Origin: Pseudanabaena sp. BC1403
GTDB taxonomy: Bacteria; Cyanobacteriota; Cyanobacteriia; Pseudanabaenales; Pseudanabaenaceae
Length of the DNA stretch: 64,000 nucleotides
Direction of reading: 5' to 3'
Assembly: GCF_002914585.1 (NCBI RefSeq)
Contig: NZ_PDDM01000014.1
Coordinates: 1 to 64,000 of the forward strand
The notes below the pieces were generated by a model. The model was not told where the DNA came from. It saw nothing but the letters and a program-made list of their open reading frames with translations, and did not search any database. How positions within the stretch are numbered: the stretch's first letter is position 1; the number at the start of each line of letters is the position of its first letter. Shown one piece after another: positions 1 to 62,979 of the stretch. The position numbers and the translations under genes are program-made.

Positions 1-249
1 GCTAAGCGGTTACGATTGCCGAGCAATATCATTTTGATATTTCAGCCTGCTCATTCTCCAGAATTAAACCCAATTGAGCGCGTTTGGTTATATTTGAAGC
101 AAGGGTTGCGCTTTACTTTACCCAAAAATATGGATGAGTTGCGGCTTTTGGTGAAGAATCGTCTCTCCGAAATGACTAAATCTGTCATTGCTTCCCTTGT
201 CGGTAGAGATTCCATACTGGATGCTCTATCTGTTGCCTCTCTTTTGTGA
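1..249 (+). mobile_element. IS630-family transposase, C-terminal part (cut by window edge)
   Basis: The frame is open from the first base of the window and ends at a TGA at 247-249. It carries the hallmark end of the IS630/Tc1-like DDE catalytic domain, PAHSPELNPIERVW, in which the glutamate is the last acid of the DDE triad. These transposases cut and paste DNA at TA targets. About 80 residues are visible and the N-terminus lies outside the window. The stop is followed at once by ATTTGGTATAA, probably the inner edge of the right terminal inverted repeat. That end resembles the ends of the 106-bp repeats at 2128 and 62375. Whether the full copy is intact cannot be seen. Confidence 0.85.
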
Positions 250-264
250 TTTGGTATAAGTTGT

Positions 265-600
265 TTATTGAACTGAAATAAATCCTAAATTCTGCCCGAT
301 TTGTTGCCCCTGCGGGGAAAGTGCAAACTCGATAAATTGTTTGACAACAGGGCTAGTTGTTTTCTTTGCCGCTAAAAATAAACTACGACTGATGGGGTAT
401 TTCCCAGCCTTCACGCTATCAATATCTGTTGGGGCTACACCATTAATTGGCAAAATCCTCACGATTTCTTGCTTTTCTACTTGAGTAGTCGTTGCGTAAC
501 TAATACCGTTATCTCCGAGATCGCGCAAAATTGCTGTCGTCTCATCTTGTTTCCATGTAATGAAGTTAGCGCTATCAGGCGCGAATTGTTGCCCTGCCAA
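265..600 (-). pseudogene. PstS-like phosphate-binding protein, C-terminal fragment
   Basis: The 111 codons resemble the last third of PstS-type periplasmic phosphate-binding proteins: a GDNGISYATTTQ segment, then KYPISRSLFL, then a helix ending SPQGQQIGQNLGFI, which is the usual C-terminus of this family. A full protein has about 320-380 residues with a signal peptide; here everything before about residue 230 is missing and no upstream frame continues it. The fragment lies 16 bp from the IS630 transposase stop, so truncation by the insertion or by an associated deletion is the simplest explanation. The ATG at 598-600 is probably an internal methionine. A substrate other than phosphate is possible within the same family. 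Confidence 0.7.
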
Positions 601-752
601 AACTATACCTATGAATCAAATGTTTCTAATGTTTCCAATTTAAATAGACTTTTCGTTTATTGTGATGAATGGTTATCAATGGCGGGATGCGTCATTCTGA
701 TGTCAAGCCTTAATTTTGATAAGTAGCTAGGAACAATTAAATGTAAGCCTAA

Positions 753-789
753 AAAGCTGTAATGACTGCTGTGTAGGCATTACAGCTTT
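753..789. terminator. Hairpin in the gap before argC
   Basis: AAAGCTGTAATG at 753-764 pairs perfectly with CATTACAGCTTT at 778-789. It may be a terminator or an old element end. The rest of the 601-909 gap shows no gene, apart from a likely ribosome-binding stretch GGAGTAAGGG just before argC. Confidence 0.45.
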
Positions 790-909
790 GAGATTTGTTT
801 TTTAATTATGTCTAAGTATTTAGTTAATTTGGGATAGGGCTTGGCTTATGCTAAGTTGTTACCCCAAATGTGAAAAGCATTTGCAATATTTTTTTGATGG
901 AGTAAGGGT

Positions 910-1968
910 ATGAGCGCACAGGATCGAGTTCCCGTAGGTATTATTGGCGCTTCGGGTTATGGTGGCATCCAATTGGTCAGACTGCTCCTAGAGCATCCAT
1001 TGGTGAACATTACTTACATGGGTGGAAGTGGCTCTGTAGGTCAAAATTTTGCCGATCTATATCCGCACATTGCCCATGCAGTTAACCTGCCCATCGAAAA
1101 CCTTGAACCTGAAGCGATCGCTGATCGTTGCAAGATTGTCTTCTTGTCATTACCAAATGGTTTAGCCAGTAAAATTGCACCACGTCTGCTAGCTAAGGGT
1201 TGCAAAGTCCTCGATCTATCCGCAGATTATCGCTTCACCGATCTACAAGTTTATGAATCTTGGTACAAGGAGGCACGGACTGACGCTGAAGTTAATTCCA
1301 AGGCGGTCTATGGATTGCCAGAAATTTATCGCGATCGCATTGCTACCGCTAACTTGGTTGGCTGTGCTGGTTGCTATCCCACTGCTAGTCTATTAGCTCT
1401 ACAGCCTTTACTAAAGCAAGGTCTAGTTGATCCTAGTACGATCATCATTGATGCTAAGTCTGGTACATCGGGTGGTGGTCGTCAGCCTAAAACTAATTTA
1501 TTACTAGCCGAAGCAGATGGATCTCTTGCTGCCTATGGTATTGCTAGCCACAGACATACTCCTGAGATTGAACAGATCTGTAGTGATATGGCAGGTCAGG
1601 ATGTTCTAGTGCAATTCACACCGCATCTAATTCCGATGATTCGCGGCATTCTTTCGACGGTATATGCTAAGTTACGCGACCCTGGTTTGGTGAAAGACGA
1701 TATTCTTACTATCTATAAATCTTTTTATCGCAACTCAGAATGGGTGCAGGTTTTGCCCAAAAATATTTTCCCACAAACCAAATGGGCTTTAGGTACTAAT
1801 CTTTGCTATCTCGGTGTCGAAGTCGATGAACGCACAGGTCGAGTAATTGTAGTGTCTGCGATCGATAACCTGATGAAAGGACAGGCTGCCCAAGCTGTGC
1901 AATGTATGAATATCATGATGGGCTGGGAAGAGTCATTGGCTCTGCCTAAGCTAACTTTCTATCCTTAA
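910..1968 (+). CDS. argC: N-acetyl-gamma-glutamyl-phosphate reductase
   Basis: The 352-residue product matches ArgC, the NADPH-dependent reductase that makes N-acetylglutamate semialdehyde, the third step of arginine biosynthesis in the cytosol. The N-terminal nucleotide-binding loop GASGYGG is at residues 13-19, and the catalytic cysteine lies in [10 protein letters not shown] (Cys155). The substrate-binding histidine segment ASHRHTPEI follows later. Length is normal for the family. The ATG is preceded by a purine-rich GGAGTAAGGG. The gene stands alone and is followed by a cluster of hairpins, so it is likely monocistronic. Confidence 0.97.
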
Positions 1969-1975
1969 ATACGTA

Positions 1976-2063
1976 TTAGCCCTGCACTCAAGTGCGGGCT
2001 AAAAGCTCAAACCCGTTGAAACGGGTTAATTAATAGGACTACGGAGTCCACTTCAGTGGAATT
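1976..2063. repeat. Multi-hairpin dispersed-type repeat
   Basis: Three or four short palindromes follow each other directly: TAGCCCTGCACTCAAGTGCGGGCTA, AACCCGTTGAAACGGGTT, GGACTACGGAGTCC and CCACTTCAGTGG. This arrangement is typical of REP-like dispersed repeats in cyanobacteria (family knowledge). Only one copy is seen in the window. Confidence 0.6.
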
Positions 2064-2065
2064 AA

Positions 2066-2103
2066 GCAAATAAGCCAAGAACTCAAGTTCTTGGCTTATT
2101 TGC
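2066..2103. terminator. Perfect 18-bp hairpin downstream of argC
   Basis: GCAAATAAGCCAAGAACT at 2066-2083 and its exact complement at 2086-2103 are separated by two bases. It is probably the argC terminator or a palindromic repeat. It follows the multi-hairpin cluster and precedes the MITE copy. Confidence 0.6.
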
Positions 2104-2127
2104 GTCATATACTTGGTTGAAGTGGGT

Positions 2128-2233
2128 TATACCAATTCACAAAAGTGTGGCAACACTTTTGTGAATTAAAAACCAAATCCAGTAAGGGTTTTAAAAACAC
2201 AAAATGGCTACGCCATTTTGTGTTTTGGTATTA
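2128..2233. mobile_element. 106-bp MITE-like element, copy 1
   Basis: The element begins TATACCAATTCAC and ends TGTTTTGGTATTA, so its tips form the inverted repeat ATACCAA/TTGGTAT. Inside are two strong hairpins, one around AATTCACAAAAGTG and its complement, the other around ACACAAAATGG with CCATTTTGTGT. A second 106-bp copy is at 62375 and a left half is at about 6535. It carries no gene. The tips resemble the sequence just after the IS630 transposase at 1-249, so that transposase family could mobilise it (inference). It sits directly upstream of thiL. Confidence 0.8.
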
Positions 2234-2277
2234 GTGATGGGCGACGCTTTGCTTCGCTCATCCTTAACGATATACAA

Positions 2278-3291
2278 ATGACAGCAACAGTTAAAAGTTT
2301 GGGTGAGCAAGGATTGCTGAAGATATTTCGGCAATATTGTAGTGCGGTGGTGGGGGATGACGCAGCGCCCATGGGCGCAACTTTGCCCGATCGCCAAATG
2401 GTGGCGACGACAGATATGTTGATCGATGGTGTGCATTTTAGCGATCGCACCACTAGCCCAGAAGATGTTGGTTGGCGTGCTGCCGCTGTGAACTTATCTG
2501 ATCTTGCTGCGATGGGTGCTAAGCCTTGGGGATTGGTCATGTCGGTGGGACTACCACCTGATACCGAGATTGCTTGGATTGAAGGTGTATATCGTGGCTT
2601 TAGTGAATGTTTACAAACCTATGGCACTGAATTGGTGGGCGGCGATACTGTGCGATCGCCTGTGCGGACTTTATCGGTAACTGCCTTTGGTCAAGTACCG
2701 AAAACTCAAGTCATTCAGAGACATACGGCGCGAGTTGGTGATGTGATTGTGATGACGGGTTTGCATGGACTTTCAAAAGCTGGTTTAGAACTTCTACTTA
2801 AAGAAGAGTTAAAAGAGGAGTTATTAGTGCCGATGCTGATTGGCAATCAGATTCTAGCGGGAGAGGATTTAGTTCAAGCAATCTGTCATTACCATCAGCG
2901 ACCAATTCCCCGTTTTGATGCGATCGCGATTTTGCATAAGATTCTCAACCAGCAAAATCATCCAACTGATTTTCCTGTTTCAGGAATGGATAGTAGTGAT
3001 GGATTAGCCGATGCGATCGCCCAAATATGTCGTGCTAGTAAAGTTGGTGCAAAGATCCATTGGCGATCGCTACCAATTCACCGAGCTGTAAGGGCTTTGG
3101 CAGGCGATCGCGCCTTAGAGTGGGTATTGTATGGCGGTGAAGATTTTGAACTTGTTTTATGTATGCCTTTGTCTTTAGCCGAAAAGTTTGTAAATCAACT
3201 ATCTGGCGCAGTGATTATCGGTGAGATTATCGATGGCGATCGAATTGACGGACTAGAAATGAGATCGGCTTTTCAACATTTCGCACCCTAA
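2278..3291 (+). CDS. thiL: Thiamine-monophosphate kinase
   Basis: The 337-residue product matches ThiL, which phosphorylates thiamine monophosphate to the cofactor thiamine diphosphate with ATP. Landmarks are VVGDDAAPM near residue 25, TTDMLIDGVHF, DLAAMGAKPWG, GGDTVRSP, and the C-terminal SGMDSSDGLADAI and YGGEDFELV segments of the PurM/ThiL fold. A longer frame runs upstream to 2218, but its first 20 codons read through the end of the MITE copy. The ATG at 2278, giving MTATVKSLGE, fits the family N-terminus better. The gene converges on rlmN. Confidence 0.95.
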   Translation: MTATVKSLGEQGLLKIFRQYCSAVVGDDAAPMGATLPDRQMVATTDMLIDGVHFSDRTTSPEDVGWRAAAVNLSDLAAMGAKPWGLVMSVGLPPDTEIAWIEGVYRGFSECLQTYGTELVGGDTVRSPVRTLSVTAFGQVPKTQVIQRHTARVGDVIVMTGLHGLSKAGLELLLKEELKEELLVPMLIGNQILAGEDLVQAICHYHQRPIPRFDAIAILHKILNQQNHPTDFPVSGMDSSDGLADAIAQICRASKVGAKIHWRSLPIHRAVRALAGDRALEWVLYGGEDFELVLCMPLSLAEKFVNQLSGAVIIGEIIDGDRIDGLEMRSAFQHFAP

Positions 3292-3336
3292 GATTGCTTT
3301 GAGAATGTTGCTTCGCAACATTCTCAAAGCAATCTT
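3290..3336. terminator. Perfect 21-bp hairpin shared by thiL and rlmN
   Basis: Arms at 3290-3310 and 3316-3336 pair without mismatch around a CTTCG loop. The hairpin overlaps the stop codons of both convergent genes, so it can act as a bidirectional terminator. Confidence 0.8.
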
Positions 3337-4405
3337 ATTTGGCTAACGCCTTTTCATGTTGTCCTCTTAGCTGACCACAGGCAGCATCTGCTTCCAGTCC
3401 TCTTGTCCGTCGTACACTCACCGCAACTTTATAATGTTCCAGAACCTGCACAAAAGCTTGAATCGCTCTTTCGGTTGGGCGTTTGTAATCAGCATCACTG
3501 ACCGTGTTGTAAGGAATCAAATTAACATGACTCTGGAAACCCCGAATTAGATATGCGAGTTCCTCGGCTTGTTCAGGTGCATCATTGACACCAGCCAGCA
3601 ATGTATATTCAAAACTAATTCTCCTACCCGTGATCTCCACATATTCACGACAGTCATCCATCAAGGCAATCAATGGATAGCGATCGGCGGAAGGAATTAC
3701 TTGGGCGCGAACTTCTTGTGTCGGCGCATGAAGGCTGACAGCGAGAGTGACTTGTAGATGCTCTTCCGCAAAGCGAGGGATCTGATTGGGAATGCCGACG
3801 GTGGAGACGGTGATATTGCGCTGACCAATGCCGATGTCTTTATTAATCACAGCGATCGCACCGACTAGATTCTCATAATTGAGCAATGGCTCGCCCATGC
3901 CCATAAATACGATATGGCTGACGCGCTGCTGCATTACTTCCTGCACAGTCAGCACTTGATCGATAATTTCATGCTTTGCCAAGTTGCGCCGAAATCCGCC
4001 TTTACCCGTGGCGCAAAAGTCACAAGCCATAGGACAGCCGACTTGGGTGGAAACACAGACGGTCAGACGCTTACTGGTGGGAATGCCAACGGTTTCGACA
4101 ATTTCTCCATCGGCTAACTTCAGCAGGAATTTCTCAGTACCATCGCGAGTTGTTTTGTGGAGATGAATCTGCGATCGCCCGATTTCCACAGTCGGATTCT
4201 GTGCAAATTCTTCGCGCCATGCCTTCGGAAACACTGTAATATCTTCTAAACTTCGCGCTCCCTTGTTATATAGCCAGTCATGGAGCTGTTTACCTCGATA
4301 GCTTGGTTGCCCTTGCGCTACGACCCATTCGGTGAGTTCAGATTGCGATCGCCCCAATAGTGGTAGGACTTTAGTAGATGCTGAGGTTAACGTATTGGCT
4401 GTCAT
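3335..4405 (-). CDS. rlmN: 23S rRNA (A2503-C2)/tRNA (A37-C2) methyltransferase
   Basis: The 356-residue radical-SAM enzyme methylates C2 of A2503 in 23S rRNA and, in the family, A37 of some tRNAs. The [4Fe-4S] motif is visible as CPMACDFC followed by ATGKGGF. The [11 protein letters not shown]-contact motif follows. The C-terminal cysteine used for the radical mechanism is Cys343 in [10 protein letters not shown]. Length is normal. The start gives [10 protein letters not shown], and the upstream 358-bp gap faces the phosphoesterase gene. Confidence 0.96.
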
Positions 4406-4451
4406 GACAAATTGGCAAATGGGGCTAATATTGATTTTATCAAATTTCTTA

Positions 4452-4680
4452 CAAACATGCCTGAGAAGGATATAAGGATGGAAAAATTCGATCTATAGCC
4501 TTTAATGGAAATCCAATTCTTACAGCGCTTTTGGGTGTGTCAGAAATCAAAAATCCTTCTTTACACAAAGTATTGAGAAGCAGTTCCATTAAATCAATGA
4601 TTTTGTCTCTATACCTCAATGACATTGCCGATCTTTTTGACGGCTCTAGTCCTCTCTTTGCAAAGGTTACTGCAAATTAA
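4452..4680 (+). other. Possible coding remnant in the rlmN-phosphoesterase gap
   Basis: In one forward frame about 70 codons are open, ending at the TAA at 4678-4680 and reading FNGNPILTALLGVS near the start and LNDIADLFDGSSPLFAK near the end. No start codon precedes the conserved-looking part and I do not recognise the family. The phrase ATTGCCGATCTT occurs three times between about 4620 and 4715. The stretch could be a decayed gene or chance; the latter half probably holds the phosphoesterase promoter. Confidence 0.25.
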
Positions 4681-4763
4681 TTTGAATTTTATTGCCGATC
4701 TTATTGCCGATCTTTCTTAGGTTTATTGATATAGTAAATTCGCATTATATTCGCTGGTAGTCT

Positions 4764-5714
4764 ATGAAACGTCGTCAACTTTTACTGACATTATTGGGTG
4801 TACCTGTAGTTGGCTCATTGATTTATGGGGCGATCTCCAAATCGAAAAACCAATATGAGCCAGTTTTAGCCAAGTCTCCAGCCAGTAATCCTCCCGAAAA
4901 TAATCCTACTTTTACTGATCCCACTGAAGAACCATTAGTGAGATTTGCGGCGATCGCAGATAACGGATTTGGTAGTCCTGACCAGATGGCTGTCGCTAAG
5001 TCCATGTGGGAAACCTATCAGCAAAAGCCCTATCCCTTCGTACTGATGGCTGGCGATAATATTTATTCCTACGGTGAAATTAGTTTAGCAAAAGCATATT
5101 TTGAAGATCCCTATGCCCCATTGCTCAAAGAGAATGTGAAATTTTATGCAGTATTGGGAAATCACGACATTATCAAATCGAACAATGGACTCGATCAGAT
5201 TAATTATCCACTTTTTAATATGAGCGATCGCTATTATTCGTTTACAAAAGGTAATACTGCTGAGGCAACTATTGAATTTTTTGCGATCGATACGAATGAC
5301 AATGCTCCTTGGCTAGAGCAGCTTGCATGGCTCGATCGTCAGTTAGCTAATAGTACAGCTCCTTGGAAAATCGTATTTGGACATCATCCTTTATATTCAT
5401 CAGGACGACATGGTAGTAATCCTAAATTAGCTGCCAAACTTGCGCCGATATTTGCGAAGCATAAAGTTTCACTTTATCTTTGTGGACATGATCATGGCTA
5501 CGAGAGATTTGCCCCGATTAATGGCACAACTTATATTGTCAATGGCGGCGGAGGTGCTCCACTATATAGCTTTGGTAAATCACCTCAAACTGCTTTTGTA
5601 AGTGCGCAGTTTAGCTTTATGACTTTTGATGTCTATCAAGATAAAATCATCACTAAGGCGATCGCCACCGATGGCAAAGTTTTTGATCGCGCCATAATCA
5701 CTAAAACCATTTAA
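4764..5714 (+). CDS. Exported metallophosphoesterase (purple acid phosphatase-like)
   Basis: The 316-residue product has the five metal-binding blocks of calcineurin-like phosphoesterases in order: AAIADNGFG near 65, AGDNIYSYG near 95, LGNHDI near 130, FGHHPLYSSG near 210 and CGHDHGYERF near 240. The N-terminus has MKRRQLLLTLLG and a short hydrophobic stretch, so export or membrane anchoring is likely, possibly through Tat, although the twin arginines are minimal. The layout resembles tartrate-resistant acid phosphatases. It probably hydrolyses phosphomonoesters in the periplasm; the substrate is unknown. It reads toward the gas-vesicle-like gene 55 bp downstream. Confidence 0.85.
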   Translation: MKRRQLLLTLLGVPVVGSLIYGAISKSKNQYEPVLAKSPASNPPENNPTFTDPTEEPLVRFAAIADNGFGSPDQMAVAKSMWETYQQKPYPFVLMAGDNIYSYGEISLAKAYFEDPYAPLLKENVKFYAVLGNHDIIKSNNGLDQINYPLFNMSDRYYSFTKGNTAEATIEFFAIDTNDNAPWLEQLAWLDRQLANSTAPWKIVFGHHPLYSSGRHGSNPKLAAKLAPIFAKHKVSLYLCGHDHGYERFAPINGTTYIVNGGGGAPLYSFGKSPQTAFVSAQFSFMTFDVYQDKIITKAIATDGKVFDRAIITKTI

Positions 5715-5769
5715 TGTAAGGTGACTCTTCACGTCACTTCACATTAAATTAGCTAAACCAATAATTACT

Positions 5770-6522
5770 ATGAGCTTATACCTGTACGCAATTTTGCAAG
5801 CTGATCATATTGAGCTAGTTAAAGATCTCGATCTTAAAGGCATGAATGCTCAGCCCGTGCAGTTTTATCCGCTCCCTCCTTTTGCGATCGTCTATAGTGA
5901 ATCTCAGCAGGAGAGATATCTCGCCAGCCGCGCAAACCTGATTACCCACGAAACAGTTTTAGAAACATTGATGAAGGCGATCGATCCGCATAAAGCAGTG
6001 CCTTTGCCTTTGCAGTTCGGGCTAGTGGTTGAAGAATGGGAAGAAGTGGAAAATGATTTGCTAATTCCTTACGAGGCAAAACTTACAGAACTGATCGATA
6101 ACTTAATCGGTAAGCGAGAAGTCAGTGTCAAACTCTTTTGGAATCAAAATGAAGAATTAAATCTCGCTGTAGCTGAAAATAAAGACTTGCAACAAAGGCG
6201 CGAAGCTTTAGTTGGGAAGGTGCTGAGTATGGATGAAGCGATCGCAATCGGGCAAGAACTAGAATCTGCGATCGAGCAACGTCAACAAATCATCATTGAT
6301 GCTTTTGTGGATACCCTCAAGCCGCTATCCCATGATTATGCTGAGGGAGAATTACTGACGGAAAGTATGATTTATAATGGTTCTTTCTTAATTGATTGGG
6401 ATAAAGAGCCTGAATTTGCCGCAGCTGTTGAAGCACTAGATCTTCAATTTGAGAACCGCCTCAGAATCCGCTACAACGATTTCACCGCTCCCTACAACTT
6501 TGTAAATGTAGATCGAGAATAA
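5770..6522 (+). CDS. gvpF: GvpF/GvpL family gas vesicle protein
   Basis: The 250-residue product matches the GvpF/GvpL family: MSLYLYAILQ at the start, a VLPLQFG-like segment (VPLPLQFGLV) near residue 85 and a C-terminal half ending RIRYNDFTAPYNFVNV. GvpF and GvpL are minor gas-vesicle proteins thought to help nucleate or prevent aggregation of GvpA. No gvpA, gvpC, gvpN or gvpK lies in this window, so it is a stand-alone member here. It may act with a gvp cluster elsewhere or have another role. F versus L cannot be settled from sequence reading. Confidence 0.8.
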   Translation: MSLYLYAILQADHIELVKDLDLKGMNAQPVQFYPLPPFAIVYSESQQERYLASRANLITHETVLETLMKAIDPHKAVPLPLQFGLVVEEWEEVENDLLIPYEAKLTELIDNLIGKREVSVKLFWNQNEELNLAVAENKDLQQRREALVGKVLSMDEAIAIGQELESAIEQRQQIIIDAFVDTLKPLSHDYAEGELLTESMIYNGSFLIDWDKEPEFAAAVEALDLQFENRLRIRYNDFTAPYNFVNVDRE

Positions 6523-6534
6523 ACTACAGCAAAG

Positions 6535-6596
6535 CTTATCCCAAATTCACAAAAGTGTTGTCACACTTTTGTGAATTAAAAAGCAAACTCTGTAGA
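6535..6596. repeat. Left half of the 106-bp MITE-like element
   Basis: The sequence CTTATCCCAAATTCACAAAAGTG and its hairpin partner match the left arm of the elements at 2128 and 62375. After GTGAATTAAAAAGCAAA similarity stops, and no right end follows. The hairpin lies between the convergent gvpF/L and kinase genes and may now serve as their terminator. Confidence 0.65.
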
Positions 6597-6608
6597 GAAA
6601 CATACGTC

Positions 6609-9600
6609 TCAACCCATGATCGGCAGTCGAATGCAAAACTTAGTACCTTGACCTAGCCCTGTCTGAACTTCCAAACTGCCACCGTGTTTTTCTACAACGA
6701 TTTGACGAGCGATCGCCAAACCCAATCCTGTTCCTTTACCCACCTCTTTGGTGGTAAACAAATGGTCAAAGATTTTAGCTTTGACATCTTCTGTCATCCC
6801 CTTACCATTGTCACAGAAATGGATTTCAATAGCATTTTGTGCAGTTAAGGTAGTTTGAATCGTAATTTTTTGAGGATTAGCTTGTAGATCAGCAAAAGAA
6901 GATTGCAGAGCAACTTCATCAAAAATATCGATCGCATTCGCCAGAATATTCATAAACACTTGGTTTAACTGACCAGGGAAACAATAAATGGCGGGCACAT
7001 CACCATAATTTTGAATGACTTCAATAGCAGGTCGATATTCGTTAGCCTTGAGCCGATATTTGAGAATTAGCAATGTACTATCAATTCCTTCGTGCAGGTT
7101 GGCGCTAACTTTATGATCAGTATCGGCACGAGAAAAAGTGCGCAGACTGTTGCTAATACCTCTAATGCGATCGGTCGCACCTTTCATAGAGTTCAGCAGC
7201 TTAGGTAAGTCTTCGCTCAGGAATTCTAAATCAATCTCTTCTGCATTGTCTTGAACAGAGGCGGCAGGATTGGGATGATGTTGCTGATAGAGAGCAAGAT
7301 GTTCGAGAAGATCATGCACATAGTCTTTCGCATTTTTAATGCTGCCATTGAGGAAGCCAATTGGATTATTGATTTCGTGGGCAACCCCAGCAACAAGATT
7401 CCCCAACGATGCCATTTTTTCGCTTTGGACAATCTGCAACTGGGATTGTTCAATCTGTTGAGCGTAGTTCTGAGCTTGTTGATAGAGCCGAGCATTTTCT
7501 AAAGAGATTGCGGCTTGAGCGCAGAGGAAGTTCAACAGTTCGACGCGATCGCTTGTAAATGCGCCAACGGTGACATGATTCTCCAAATACAAAATTGCCA
7601 CAAGTTTGCCCTGCTGTAAAATTGGGGTACAGAGCATACTCTTGGGCTGCTGCTGCAAGACATAAACATCCGTCGCTAAGGTGGGATGAACAGAGGCATC
7701 AACAATCACCACAGGTTCCCGACTACGTTTAACAGTATTAATCAATGATTGGGGAACTTCTGAACTACTAGACAAATCAATGGATTGCACTTGTGCTGGC
7801 TGATCGACGGTGGCAATCGCTTCCACAAACCACTGATTTTTACTGGGCATTAGCAAAGCACTTTTATCGGCTCCCGCATTTTCGAGAACCGTATGCAGCA
7901 AGGTTGCCAAGAGCTTGTCGAGTTGAATTTCGCTGGACAGGGTTTGAGATGCTTTCAGCACCGTTGCGAGGTCGAGTGTGGCAGAAATGCTGGTGCTACT
8001 GTGAGTAGATGATTGTGTACTAGCTGTTTGAGATGTGGTTATAGATATTGTCGAAAACACTGTTTCAGTTGCCGACAAAGCCATTTTTTGTTGTTGCAAA
8101 ATTGGCGCAAGCATCTGGGGATAGCGACGTTCTAGGTCTTGTACTTTGGCTTTTGCGCCCCAGCGAGCATAGCCGTAGTAGGCATTCGTCAGATACTCTT
8201 GGGCAATTTTTTCTTTGCCCCAATCGAGATAGAATTTGGCAGCGAGTTCGTTGGCTAAAGCCTCTTCTTGGATAAATCCATTCGCTTTGGCTCCTGCGAT
8301 CGCTTGGTCATAATATGCGATCGCATTTGAAATATCGCTTGAAATACAGCAACGTAATGCCTCTACCAGAAGATACTTATGTTGATAATTGATCGGTGCA
8401 GCACTAGCATAAATGCCTAGTTTTTCCTGATTTGCATCAACCTGAGAAAGAAGTTTTACTTGCTGCAAAGGATCAACCGTTGGATAAAGTGTGAGACGAG
8501 CTAATGAATCACAGTAATAATAAACTGGTGCAGAAAGCATTCCCATCCCAGCTTTAAGATATTTTTCTCCTGCATCTGCATCCTGAATTGCCGCAGTAAT
8601 ATCTCTAAATACGAAGCTCAACATCAACTTACACAGATAAAATAGATGGAGCGCTAATTCATCATTTACTTTACGAAGGCTTGATAAGTACTCCGCTTCA
8701 TCGCTTGCATCACTACCAAGACAGCTTGGATCTTCCCTATACTCAGTAAGATTTTTGATAGAATAACGCAGGATATGCATCCAGCTTAAAAAATGTTGAC
8801 TTGTGGCAAATTTCACCTGATAAATAGCAAGTTCTTCTTCTAATATTTCTAGCCCCTCCACACCACTTAAATAGGTATACATTAACCTAAACGAAGTGGA
8901 AACAAGTGAGTGAACAGCATCTCCTGTTTCTAATCCAACTTGATAGCACTCCTTCAATAAATTAATCGCTTGTTTAATGCTTTCTCGATTCGATTGATTA
9001 AATGCAGCGACCTTAAACTGAGTCATACTCTGAACTGATTTTTCAGAGAATTTATCCATGATTTTAAGTGCTAGCTGTCCAAATTGATAACCTTCTTCTA
9101 GCTTGTTTAACACAGTGCTGACAATAATTCCAAAATCTGCATATCCTGGTGCAGAAAAAGGTGAATTACCATATTTAAGCGATAAATTGACCTCTTCACA
9201 GGCAATAATTGGGAAAAGGTGGGGAGCTGCCTGATGCACGGATGGAACAAGGCTAGTCATAATTCGTAAAGCCGCTAAAGCATTGACCTCCTGCATTACT
9301 GGGAGGTTTACTAACTCCTCGATCTCGCAACTTGGTAAAGATGCCAACGTGTTTTCGACGTACTGTTGAATTTCTAAAGAGCTGATTGACTCAGGAAAAC
9401 TTATCCCCAATTTCTGAAGGATTTCTCGACCAACCGTAATTGCCTGAAGCTGTTGATTTTGCACTTGATATGCTTGGAGTTTGATCTCGTATACTTTCAC
9501 TTGATCAAGTAAGGTATTAGTACGCCGCAACACAACCTGAATCAAAGATTCCATCTGCTCAAAATCACAATTCAGCAACGCTACTTCTGCTGCTTCCTCG

Positions 9601-18482: not shown

Positions 18483-19979
18483 CTACTTTTTTACTTTTTT
18501 CATATTCTTTTTCAAACGAGCTAATTCAGCTTTTAAAACGAGTATTTGTGGATGTTTAGGATCTAATAAATGCTTAAAGAGAAATAATGTTTCTTTATAG
18601 GCTGCGACTGCTTGAGGAAATTGTTGACATTTCTCATAAAGTTTTCCTAATGTCCAAATACGATCAGCATATGATTTATTTTGAGTCTCTTGCCGTTCGC
18701 GTTTAATGGCTTTCCATCTTTCTAACAATGCAATTGTTTCTGAATTCCGTTTTTGACTTTTATAAAGTTCTGCTAAATTATTCAGGCTATTGGCAGTATC
18801 AGGATGATTTTCTCCTAATTGCTCTTCACAGATTTTCAGTGAGCGAAGAAAGAGGGATTCAGCCTCATCATATCGTCCTTTATCTTGATAAAGTCTCGCT
18901 AAATTATTCAGGCTATTGGCAATATCAGGATGATTTTCTCCTAATTGCTCTTCACGGATTTTCAGTGAGCGAAGATAGTGGGATTCTGCCTCATCATATC
19001 GTCCTTTATTTTTATAAAGTCCCGCTAAATTATTCAGGCTATTGGCAGTATCAGGATGATTTTTTCCTAATTGCTCTTCATAGATTTTCAGTGCGCGAAG
19101 ATTGAGAGATTCTGCCTCATCATATCGTCCTTTACTTCTATAAAGTTCTGCTAAATTATTCAGACTAGTAGCAGTATCAGGATGATTTTTTCCTAATTGC
19201 TCTTCACTTATTGATAGAGCATTTTTATAAAAATAAATCGAACTGTCATAATCACCCTGTTCTTGCTTGCTATTACCAATATCTCGTAACAAGGTAGTAA
19301 TATAGCGCAGGTTTTTCAGGTTTATTTCTTTGTAAAAGGTTTCTGCTCGACGAAAGAATGACTCGGCTTCTGCATAATGGCCAGAACGGAGTTTGACAAG
19401 TCCCTGTAAATGGAGGGGAAAACCTTTTCCAAAAGCATCTAACCTATCAGCAATTTCATGTTCTCGAAAACCTTGAACAGCGGCTTGTAAACGCTCAATT
19501 TGATTATAAGTCCACCAATCAAAGCCTCTATCCAATAGTCTTCCAGTCTGAGCCTCACCTTCATTAAGGATCTCATGATAACAAAATTCCACATCTTCTT
19601 CTGACGACATTTTTTCAGAAAAGAAGTAATCCGCCGCTCGTTGGGATAACCTCAAAAATTCATCTTTATCCTGCTGCCAGAGTTGATTTAATAATACATT
19701 TCGCGTTAATTCATGGATGTTATATCCCTGTTTAGGAAATTCCTCAACAAAGGTTAACGTCTTTAACTTTTCATACAATTTATCCGCTTGTTCTGCTAAC
19801 TCTGGTCTTAACGCCGCCAAAATATTAGCATCAAAAAAATGTGGAATTGCCGCCGCCCAGAGCGTAGAAACCAAATCATCAGGCATCTGACTCATTTGTA
19901 ATTCCAGCAAGATCCACTGCCGTTCTGTCTCTGTCTCGGCTTGCTGAACTCGTTTTAGTATCTCTTCAATACTGACCAC
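18483..19979 (-). CDS. TPR protein, downstream half of a split STAND-like system
   Basis: The 498-residue product begins with a helical region of about 190 residues whose YNIHELTRNVLLNQLW segment resembles the winged-helix part that follows NB-ARC ATPases. Next come about five 42-residue kinesin-light-chain-type TPRs of the form NSLNNLAxLYxxKGRYDEAE (about 230-410), then further helices and a lysine-rich end. TPR arrays in STAND proteins act as ligand sensors. Its start overlaps the end of the ATPase gene by 14 bases in another frame, implying coupled translation. The TPR DNA repeats every 126 bp with high identity. No catalytic effector domain is seen. Confidence 0.85.
   Translation of the reverse strand: MVSIEEILKRVQQAETETERQWILLELQMSQMPDDLVSTLWAAAIPHFFDANILAALRPELAEQADKLYEKLKTLTFVEEFPKQGYNIHELTRNVLLNQLWQQDKDEFLRLSQRAADYFFSEKMSSEEDVEFCYHEILNEGEAQTGRLLDRGFDWWTYNQIERLQAAVQGFREHEIADRLDAFGKGFPLHLQGLVKLRSGHYAEAESFFRRAETFYKEINLKNLRYITTLLRDIGNSKQEQGDYDSSIYFYKNALSISEEQLGKNHPDTATSLNNLAELYRSKGRYDEAESLNLRALKIYEEQLGKNHPDTANSLNNLAGLYKNKGRYDEAESHYLRSLKIREEQLGENHPDIANSLNNLARLYQDKGRYDEAESLFLRSLKICEEQLGENHPDTANSLNNLAELYKSQKRNSETIALLERWKAIKRERQETQNKSYADRIWTLGKLYEKCQQFPQAVAAYKETLFLFKHLLDPKHPQILVLKAELARLKKNMKKVKK
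18776..19230 (-). repeat. 126-bp tandem coding repeats (TPR array)
   Basis: The phrase TTCAGGCTATTGGCA recurs at 18781, 18907 and 19033, with a diverged copy at 19159, a period of exactly 126 bp or 42 codons. Between copies only scattered bases differ. This points to recent tandem duplication or ongoing gene conversion within the TPR array. Confidence 0.85.
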
Positions 19980-28791: not shown

Positions 28792-28950
28792 CTAATTCTT
28801 AGAAACCATTTAAGAATTGTCTAGATCCCCCCCAGCCCCCCTTAAAAAGGGGGGAGAATTTAAATTCTTCCCCCTTTTTAAGGGGGGCTGGGGGGGATCT
28901 CTTAGGGATTTTGAACGTAAGAAGTAATTCTTAAATAGTTTCTTAATTAC
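28792..28950. mobile_element. MITE-like element with nested long hairpin
   Basis: Imperfect terminal inverted repeats of about 27 bp (TTAGAAACCATTTAAGAATT on the left; the complement of AATTCTTAAATAGTTTCTTA on the right) bracket a long hairpin at 28824-28899. That hairpin has arms GATCCCCCCCAGCCCCCCTT and its complement, then AAAAAGGGGGGAGAATT. It contains no gene. It lies between the divergent histidine kinase and CDGSH genes. Beyond it, to 29233, there is AT-rich DNA that probably holds the CDGSH promoter. Confidence 0.65.
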
Positions 28951-61472: not shown

Positions 61473-61507
61473 TAGCAATATGTGGCGCTTCGCGCCACAT
61501 ATTGCTA
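61473..61507. terminator. Hairpin between GerMN and GH3 genes
   Basis: TAGCAATATGTGGCGC-TTC-GCGCCACATATTGCTA is a perfect 16-bp stem. It overlaps the GerMN stop codon. Confidence 0.8.
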
Positions 61508-62104
61508 AAACTCTAATGCAAAATCTTTGCGGGTCATTGGTTGAGGGACTTCTAAGCCCTCACCGCCAATATATTTTAACGGCTTACCTTCCACGGACAA
61601 AAAGACTTTTGCATCGGGTTCTAAAGTCGTAGCTGTGTATAAAACCTGAATAATCCTTCCCTGCATTGAAGCAGAGCCACCACCTTGGGTGAAATCCTTA
61701 GATAAATCAATCCGAATTTCCTTGTTTTTTGTTGTCGCGCTCAAGACTTTGGTGTTTTCAGGAATGGCGCTATAAAGCTCCGATTCAGGAGGCTTTTCGG
61801 AAATCAACATTTTGATCACTGAGCCGATCGCCTCATCATTACTTTTGGCTTTAACTGCGATCGGCACAGCGATCAGTTTATTTTTACTAGACTCGATCCA
61901 ATAAACAGCCAACTGACCATCCACGGCTCTGGTTGCAGGTGGTGGAGATTGGGTTACTTGGTTGATACTTGCTGGTGCTGATGATTGGGGATTAGGCTGA
62001 TTATTAAAAGTGCCATGCACAAGCACTGCCGCACCAGAGCCGCCGACAACCGCCGCCGCTACTAGCCCAAACCAAGTACTTTTGCTTAAAACTGGAATTT
62101 TCAT
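61505..62104 (-). CDS. GerMN-domain protein, membrane anchored
   Basis: The product of about 199 residues has an N-terminal membrane helix (WFGLVAAAVVGGSGAAVLVH), a Pro/Ser-rich linker and a GerMN domain (LAVYWIESSKNKLIAVPI, PENTKVLSATTKNKEIRIDL, QVLYTATTLEPDAKVFLSVE). GerMN domains are found in spore germination proteins and in many non-sporing bacteria, with unclear roles in cell-surface assembly. GAAGAG lies upstream of the ATG at 62104; an ATG five codons earlier at 62119 is also possible. It sits near cell-wall genes (GH3, dacB). Confidence 0.85.
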   Translation of the reverse strand: MKIPVLSKSTWFGLVAAAVVGGSGAAVLVHGTFNNQPNPQSSAPASINQVTQSPPPATRAVDGQLAVYWIESSKNKLIAVPIAVKAKSNDEAIGSVIKMLISEKPPESELYSAIPENTKVLSATTKNKEIRIDLSKDFTQGGGSASMQGRIIQVLYTATTLEPDAKVFLSVEGKPLKYIGGEGLEVPQPMTRKDFALEF

Positions 62105-62374
62105 AATTTCGCTCTTCATCGTTGATTAAGTTTGCATAATACTATTGACGCAAACAAACGCGAGTTAGCTCCTTAATCTATTTTATAGCAGCTTAAAGTC
62201 CAAAAAGATGTCAGTCAGAAGTCCTGTTAATTCCTTTTTCTTAAGCAAAAAACTCTTAATAAGTAGAAATGCTTAATTAAATGTAGGATTCTTTAGTGCA
62301 ACGTAACGCATCAATTAGACATCAACTATGGGTTACGCGATCGCCAACCCATCCTAAATTTAATTCCAACAACT

Positions 62375-62480
62375 TATACCAATTCACAGAAGTGTGACAA
62401 CACTTCTGTGAATTAAAATGCAACCCCTGTAAGGGTTTTAAAAACATAAAGTGGCTACGCCACTTTGTGTTTTGGTATTA
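62375..62480. mobile_element. 106-bp MITE-like element, copy 2
   Basis: Tips TATACCAATTCAC and TTTTGGTATTA, the two internal hairpins and the total of 106 bp match copy 1 at 2128, with scattered differences (CACAGAAGTGTG versus CACAAAAGTGTG; AAGTGG versus AAATGG) that keep the stems paired. It lies between the divergent-side gap of GerMN and the coaD stop at 62491. The remaining gap from 62105 to 62374 holds AT-rich DNA and no gene. Confidence 0.8.
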
Positions 62481-62490
62481 CTGAGAGCAA

Positions 62491-62979
62491 TTAGTGGTGT
62501 TGGAATTTTTGTCTTAGGGCGGTCACTACTTCGGGAGTTACTAAATGCCCAATTTCACCACCAAAACGAGCAATTTCACGAACCACGCTACTGCTCAAGA
62601 AGCTATATTCATTGGAAGTAGATAGAAAAACCGTCTCGATATCATTAGCCAAGGTTTTATTGGTATGTGCCATCTGTAATTCCAATTCAAAATCTGAAAC
62701 TGCTCTTAATCCTCGAATTAAAACCTTTGCTTGCTTGAGATGGGCATAGGTGACAGTTAGCCCTGTAAAGGTGTCAACATCGACATTATCTAAGTGTTGC
62801 GTTGCTTGACTAATTTGGAGCATTCTTTCCTCCATCGTAAATAGAGGATTTTTATTTGGGTTTCTTAAAACAGCGACGATAACGCGATCGAATAGATGAC
62901 TACCGCGCTTAATAATATCGATATGTCCAAGGGTAATAGGATCAAAACTACCTGGATAAATGGCAATCAATGCAGTCAC
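62491..62979 (-). CDS. coaD: Phosphopantetheine adenylyltransferase
   Basis: The 162-residue product makes dephospho-CoA from 4'-phosphopantetheine and ATP, the penultimate step of coenzyme A synthesis. It has the nucleotidyltransferase motif [16 protein letters not shown] (T/HxGH type, about 8-23), [13 protein letters not shown], and [17 protein letters not shown]. Length is normal. It stands between the MITE copy and a terminator hairpin. Confidence 0.96.

Follow-up and report, generated by a model that had tools for sequence, protein, structure and literature searches.

Among the MITEs known from bacteria, RUP has been linked to IS630, and the known hosts of Nezha are Anabaena/Nostoc and not Pseudanabaena. 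The MITE family described here, from Pseudanabaena sp. BC1403, resembles Nezha and other cyanobacterial MITEs in being small and non-autonomous and in having TIRs, direct repeats and a strong secondary structure, and resembles Correia, RUP and similar bacterial MITEs in being IS-related, about 100–200 bp long, high in copy number and mostly intergenic (review PMC10969869). It differs from the latter in its tips and hosts, and the literature searched yielded no description of Correia, RUP or similar MITEs as double hairpins that invert in place. For the IS630-type IS that is proposed as its partner, the comparison is with ISY100 (ISTcSa; IS630/Tc1/mariner) of Synechocystis, for which 34 of the 39 insertions made in vitro had normal TA duplications (PMC2170065). 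The likeness lies in a cyanobacterial IS630-family transposase with helix-turn-helix and DDE domains and in cut-and-paste movement into TA-containing targets; however, ISY100 makes a TA duplication, and single transposase genes are described there for the IS630 family (PMC2170065), whereas the partner IS has a 3-bp TWA duplication, two ORFs and 31 residues from the last D to E. Duplication of 3 bp (TAA) instead of TA is known for the Fot elements (pogo group, IS630-Tc1-mariner), but these are eukaryotic, have another catalytic signature and are not close relatives (PMC7386202). No bacterial IS630 with a TNA or TWA duplication was found in a search confined to the literature.

The window, meaning the whole 64-kb stretch of DNA that was analysed, contains two full copies of the MITE, and the coordinates of its features are given in Table 1. 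In the initial annotation both copies had been recognised at 106 bp each. They are genuine, with 89% homology across 111 nt, but the core of the element, with limits set from the target duplications, is 101 bp (TACCAA...TTGGTA; TACCAATTCAC...GTGTTTTGGTA), the 106-bp limits having taken in two bases of the left duplication and all three of the right. The element is below 500 bp, is without a transposase gene and shows the terminal inverted repeats TACCAA...TTGGTA in aligned copies; the remaining features of a MITE, namely target-site duplication, high copy number, polymorphism between relatives and ends common to an autonomous IS, were also found.

Table 1. Positions of the MITE copies, their flanks and the partner IS end within the window.
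Feature	Position	Strand
IS630-type IS right end: transposase ORFB C-terminus (1–249), TIR ...GTGATTTGGTA ending at 256	1–256	+
TAA next to the right end of the IS, a putative target duplication	257–259	.
MITE copy 1, left target-site duplication TTA	2127–2129	.
MITE copy 1, 101-bp core TACCAATTCAC...GTGTTTTGGTA, between argC-like and thiL-like genes	2130–2230	+
MITE copy 1, left hairpin	2134–2167	+
MITE copy 1, right hairpin	2194–2226	+
MITE copy 1, right target-site duplication TTA	2231–2233	.
Degenerate truncated MITE copy (third in the window): left hairpin, tips not intact	~6544–6594	+
MITE copy 2, left target-site duplication TTA	62374–62376	.
MITE copy 2, 101-bp core, between minus-strand ORFs 61505–62119 and 62491–62979	62377–62477	+
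MITE copy 2, right target-site duplication TTA	62478–62480	.

Other repeats were also observed in the window. The stretch from the argC-like gene to MITE copy 1 holds a second interspersed repeat (~1970–2105), which is matched at 87–88% in two other genomes (G031 and G022). An inverted repeat at 28823–28900 (AGATCCCCCCCAGCCCCCC...) has 39-nt arms that are 97% complementary, without a spacer, and a sequence similar to it sits upstream of thiL in genome G027 (L071). A 55-nt repeat family around AATCACGACTCACAGTAATAGCGATCGC is represented by seven copies between 18407 and 40504, and direct repeats with a 126-nt period occur at 18748–19212 as three overlapping 213-nt copies that are 87–90% alike.

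The BC1403 genome (5.5 Mb, 88 contigs) was searched with a pattern of the MITE left end allowing up to two mismatches, giving 138 matches, three of which are ends of the IS, while the reversed control gave none. Whole-element patterns matched at 64 and 48 places, a few being one element read both ways. Together with the 30 best BLAST hits, these places yielded 103 near-full copies, which were extracted and brought into a common orientation. The genome-wide count, which the initial annotation had put forward as a check, comes to more than 100 near-intact copies. Most of those extracted (91/103) are exactly 101 bp, with a median identity to the consensus of 93%, and six MITE sequences occur as exact duplicates, each at two to four separate loci with differing flanks and partly differing TSDs. 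When 291 genomes of the class were searched with the consensus, the MITE was present in all 25 Pseudanabaena genomes and in none of the 266 others.

A TA target duplication had been expected for these elements. The copies are instead flanked by T-N-A on both sides, nearly always TTA/TTA or TAA/TAA, and the left and right flanks are alike in 99 of the 103, giving a 3-bp T(A/T)A; duplication of TA only was rejected, since the middle base of TNA recurs in both flanks. Agreement at this base would be expected in 48% of copies (P ~1e-26). The search patterns fixed the T and A of the flank and left the right middle base free, and the BLAST-found copies (L001–L030), which are free of pattern bias, give the same result. 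The target duplication would measure 3 bp, with the 3-bp stagger drawn from symmetry, since a 1-bp duplication within a TNA target gives identical sequences.

Joined flanks of 11 MITE copies were searched in five relatives. Precise empty sites, in which a single TTA or TAA is found and the element is absent, were identified at L003 (97–99% identity), L009, L104 and L158, and at L003, L104 and L158 the difference to the empty site is exactly 104 bp (101 + 3). The MITE at L003, where the site is empty in two close relatives, belongs to one of the groups of exact duplicates. At L104, one relative (G022) is filled, with the same TTA duplication, and another (G027) is empty, so this insertion most likely arose after the G027 lineage had split off. 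Three further loci (L004, L119 and L156) were not taken as precise empty sites, as the junction-spanning matches carry indels or substitutions there. The search for empty sites suggested in the initial annotation was successful at four loci and only partly so at the argC–thiL copy in the window, whose site is rearranged in relatives, with a clean single TTA at the right flank only (G020).

At the beginning of the window, the 82-residue fragment belongs to DDE_3 (Pfam), confirming the IS630-type transposase previously reported there. The true right end of the IS is ATTTGGTA, followed by TAA. The contig start falls inside the IS, and near-identical fragments are found at the ends of contigs C9 and C44. 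In the BC1403 genome the IS is represented by three right and four left ends, which occur at contig ends and are always broken at the same base, as is expected of a collapsed repeat; the assembly holds these ends and no intact copy. Directly beside the IS end in the window is a truncated minus-strand ORF (265–600), which, named by eye, resembles a phosphate-binding (PstS-type) C-terminus.

Intact relatives of the IS are 1134–1150 bp in length, plus one copy of 949 bp from which part of ORFA appears to have been lost. The IS is comprised of ORFA, with helix-turn-helix domains, and ORFB, with the DDE domain. The two lie in different frames and adjoin at an A-run, which suggests that they are joined through a frameshift at this position. 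A related full ORFB scored 111.9 bits with the IS630 model NF033545 of NCBIfam (cut-off 100). Members of the DD34E/DD35E groups of IS630 typically have ~34–35 residues between the second D and E, a spacing from which the partner IS departs, with 31 in nine relatives. All seven IS ends in the BC1403 genome adjoin TWA, and four intact independent Pseudanabaena copies (L043, L046, L047 and L051) all have matching TWA flanks. Outside the genus, in G006, the flanks are mostly TWA, but the sides match in only 7 of 13 copies, close to the ~50% expected by chance from an A/T middle base, which makes this a weak result. Other IS630-type elements, in G029, G021 and G012, are flanked by TA only, the bases beyond being variable. 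The 2-bp TA duplication of IS630 is not found with the partner IS, and because of its TWA duplication it was filed as IS630-type by its transposase and not as a typical member of IS630.

The TIRs of the intact IS relatives (949–1150 bp) start with TACCAA... and finish with ...TTGGTA. The right and left ends of the IS are TACCAAATCACAAAAGAGAGGCAACAG and TACCAAAACACAAAGAAGAGGCAACAG, respectively, with likeness to the MITE at the very tip of each. Counted from the sequences, the right end TACCAAATCACAAAAGAGAGGCAACAG is identical to the MITE left end at 23 of 27 bases, and the left end TACCAAAACACAAAGAAGAGGCAACAGAT, found as four perfect copies in BC1403, is identical to the MITE right tip at 14–15 of 15. 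What distinguishes one IS end from the other also distinguishes the two MITE ends, so that the match is end-specific. A disagreement between the terminal repeats of the IS and the MITE tips had been named beforehand as the result that would count against a relationship, and the comparison gave the opposite. Outside the ends, the similarity between MITE and IS consists of short chance-level matches, none of them convincing, and the MITE as a simple internal deletion of the IS was rejected because only the ends are common to both.

Given the end-specific shared tips, the TWA flanks on both elements, the precise empty sites and the identical copies at separate loci, it is very likely that the IS630-type IS supplies in trans the transposase that mobilises the MITE, a non-autonomous DNA transposon. 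The tie to the local IS630 proposed in the initial annotation is thus upheld by ends, flanks and empty sites, with the ends as the only sequence in common and the movement itself being what we infer. The transposase (ORFA helix-turn-helix and ORFB DDE, apparently frameshift-joined) would bind the TACCAAWWCACAAA ends of the MITE, excise it and join it to a T(A/T)A target with a 3-bp stagger, and fill-in of the staggered target would yield the 3-bp duplication. The hairpins would be unnecessary for explaining the tips.

It is improbable that the MITE is moved by a different transposase, one that also acts on TACC...GGTA tips and has a 3-bp TNA target, such as that of an IS5-type IS (the IS1031 group duplicates TNA). 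A 3-bp duplication is unusual for IS630, as ISY100 duplicates TA (PMC2170065) and so do the other IS630s of the genus, but the IS630-type IS is itself flanked by TWA and corresponds specifically to both MITE ends, and a non-exhaustive look turned up no other element with these tips. Some genomes that bear the MITE (G022, G011, G015 and G016) gave no match to this transposase fragment, and there the partner may have been lost or missed, or may be another IS.

A still smaller probability attaches to the copies being palindromic repeats that are retained because their RNA or DNA hairpin has a function (terminator or REP-like) and that spread by recombination instead of transposition. Strong covariation in the stems would fit such a role, as would the gene context, with 102 of the 103 copies outside ORFs of at least 90 aa and convergent contexts (19) exceeding divergent ones (5). 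Against it are the exact 3-bp duplications and the identical copies at unrelated loci, as well as the lack of a fitting Rfam family, a search of window positions 1–7000 having given no match; recombination as the spreading route is refuted by the empty sites. Mobilisation by the IS630-type transposase leaves room for a host role of the hairpins besides mobility. Chance or local duplication as the source of the similarity between 2128–2233 and 62375–62480, for which no supporting evidence was found, is refuted by the more than 100 genome-wide copies with unrelated flanks.

Each MITE contains two near-perfect hairpins, which are strong in both full copies of the window (RNA fold −43.7 and −48.3 kcal/mol; z −8.4 and −9.8). 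In the 84 distinct sequences compared, Watson–Crick pairs make up 93% of stem cells, and 66 of the Watson–Crick cells are doubly changed, a count that partly reflects shared descent, compared with a mean of 20.7 in 500 shuffles (maximum 30) and 5–12 for slid pairings. The compensatory stem changes noted earlier between the two copies in the window are a family-wide feature. Some copies have a hairpin inverted as a unit, and hence compensatory changes can stem from palindrome events at the DNA level and not from selection alone. In the left hairpin, an A.C versus G.T mismatch tracks the orientation of the loop (45:0 and 1:4; Fisher P 2e-5). Between L104 of BC1403 and its ortholog in G022 (L281), with flanks 98–100% alike, the differences in the right hairpin fall from five to two once it is inverted, and this hairpin appears to have been inverted in place. 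Pairing could be kept by template switching within the palindrome or by selection on the DNA or RNA hairpin; template switching would account for the in-place inversion as well.

Single hairpin units are also present in the BC1403 genome. The pattern TACCAA-N-TTGGTA, of 41–42 bp and followed by TNA, gave 25 forward and 24 reverse matches, representing ~22 palindromic places, some of which correspond to one half of a full MITE that has kept its inner tip, while others stand alone. Stand-alone examples with TACC/GGTA tips and TNA flanks were seen at L312, L316 and L337 (position ~1500) and at C1:125223, C2:63090 and C10:141302. At least five single units have matching 3-bp flanks (two strands read), but most others have inverted flanks (TAA...TTA), which leaves transposition of single units unproven, and no presence/absence pair was found for them among the loci examined. 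It is conceivable, if rather doubtful, that two 41–42-bp single-hairpin units, each with TACC/GGTA tips, make up the 101-bp MITE as a dimer, that the transposase moves single units too and that the hairpins flip in place by template switching during replication. If true, the single units would be among the smallest transposable elements.

A MITE with an IS partner is of a known kind; what is unusual here is that a TWA duplication goes with a transposase of IS630 type and that the hairpins flip. With its high copy number, its empty sites and the close relatives in which it can be compared, the family represents a clean natural MITE/IS pair. An IS630-type enzyme that apparently makes a 3-bp and not a 2-bp duplication provides a testable case for how the target stagger is set across this large group of transposases, and the MITE family also offers a case for in-place change of palindromic ends.
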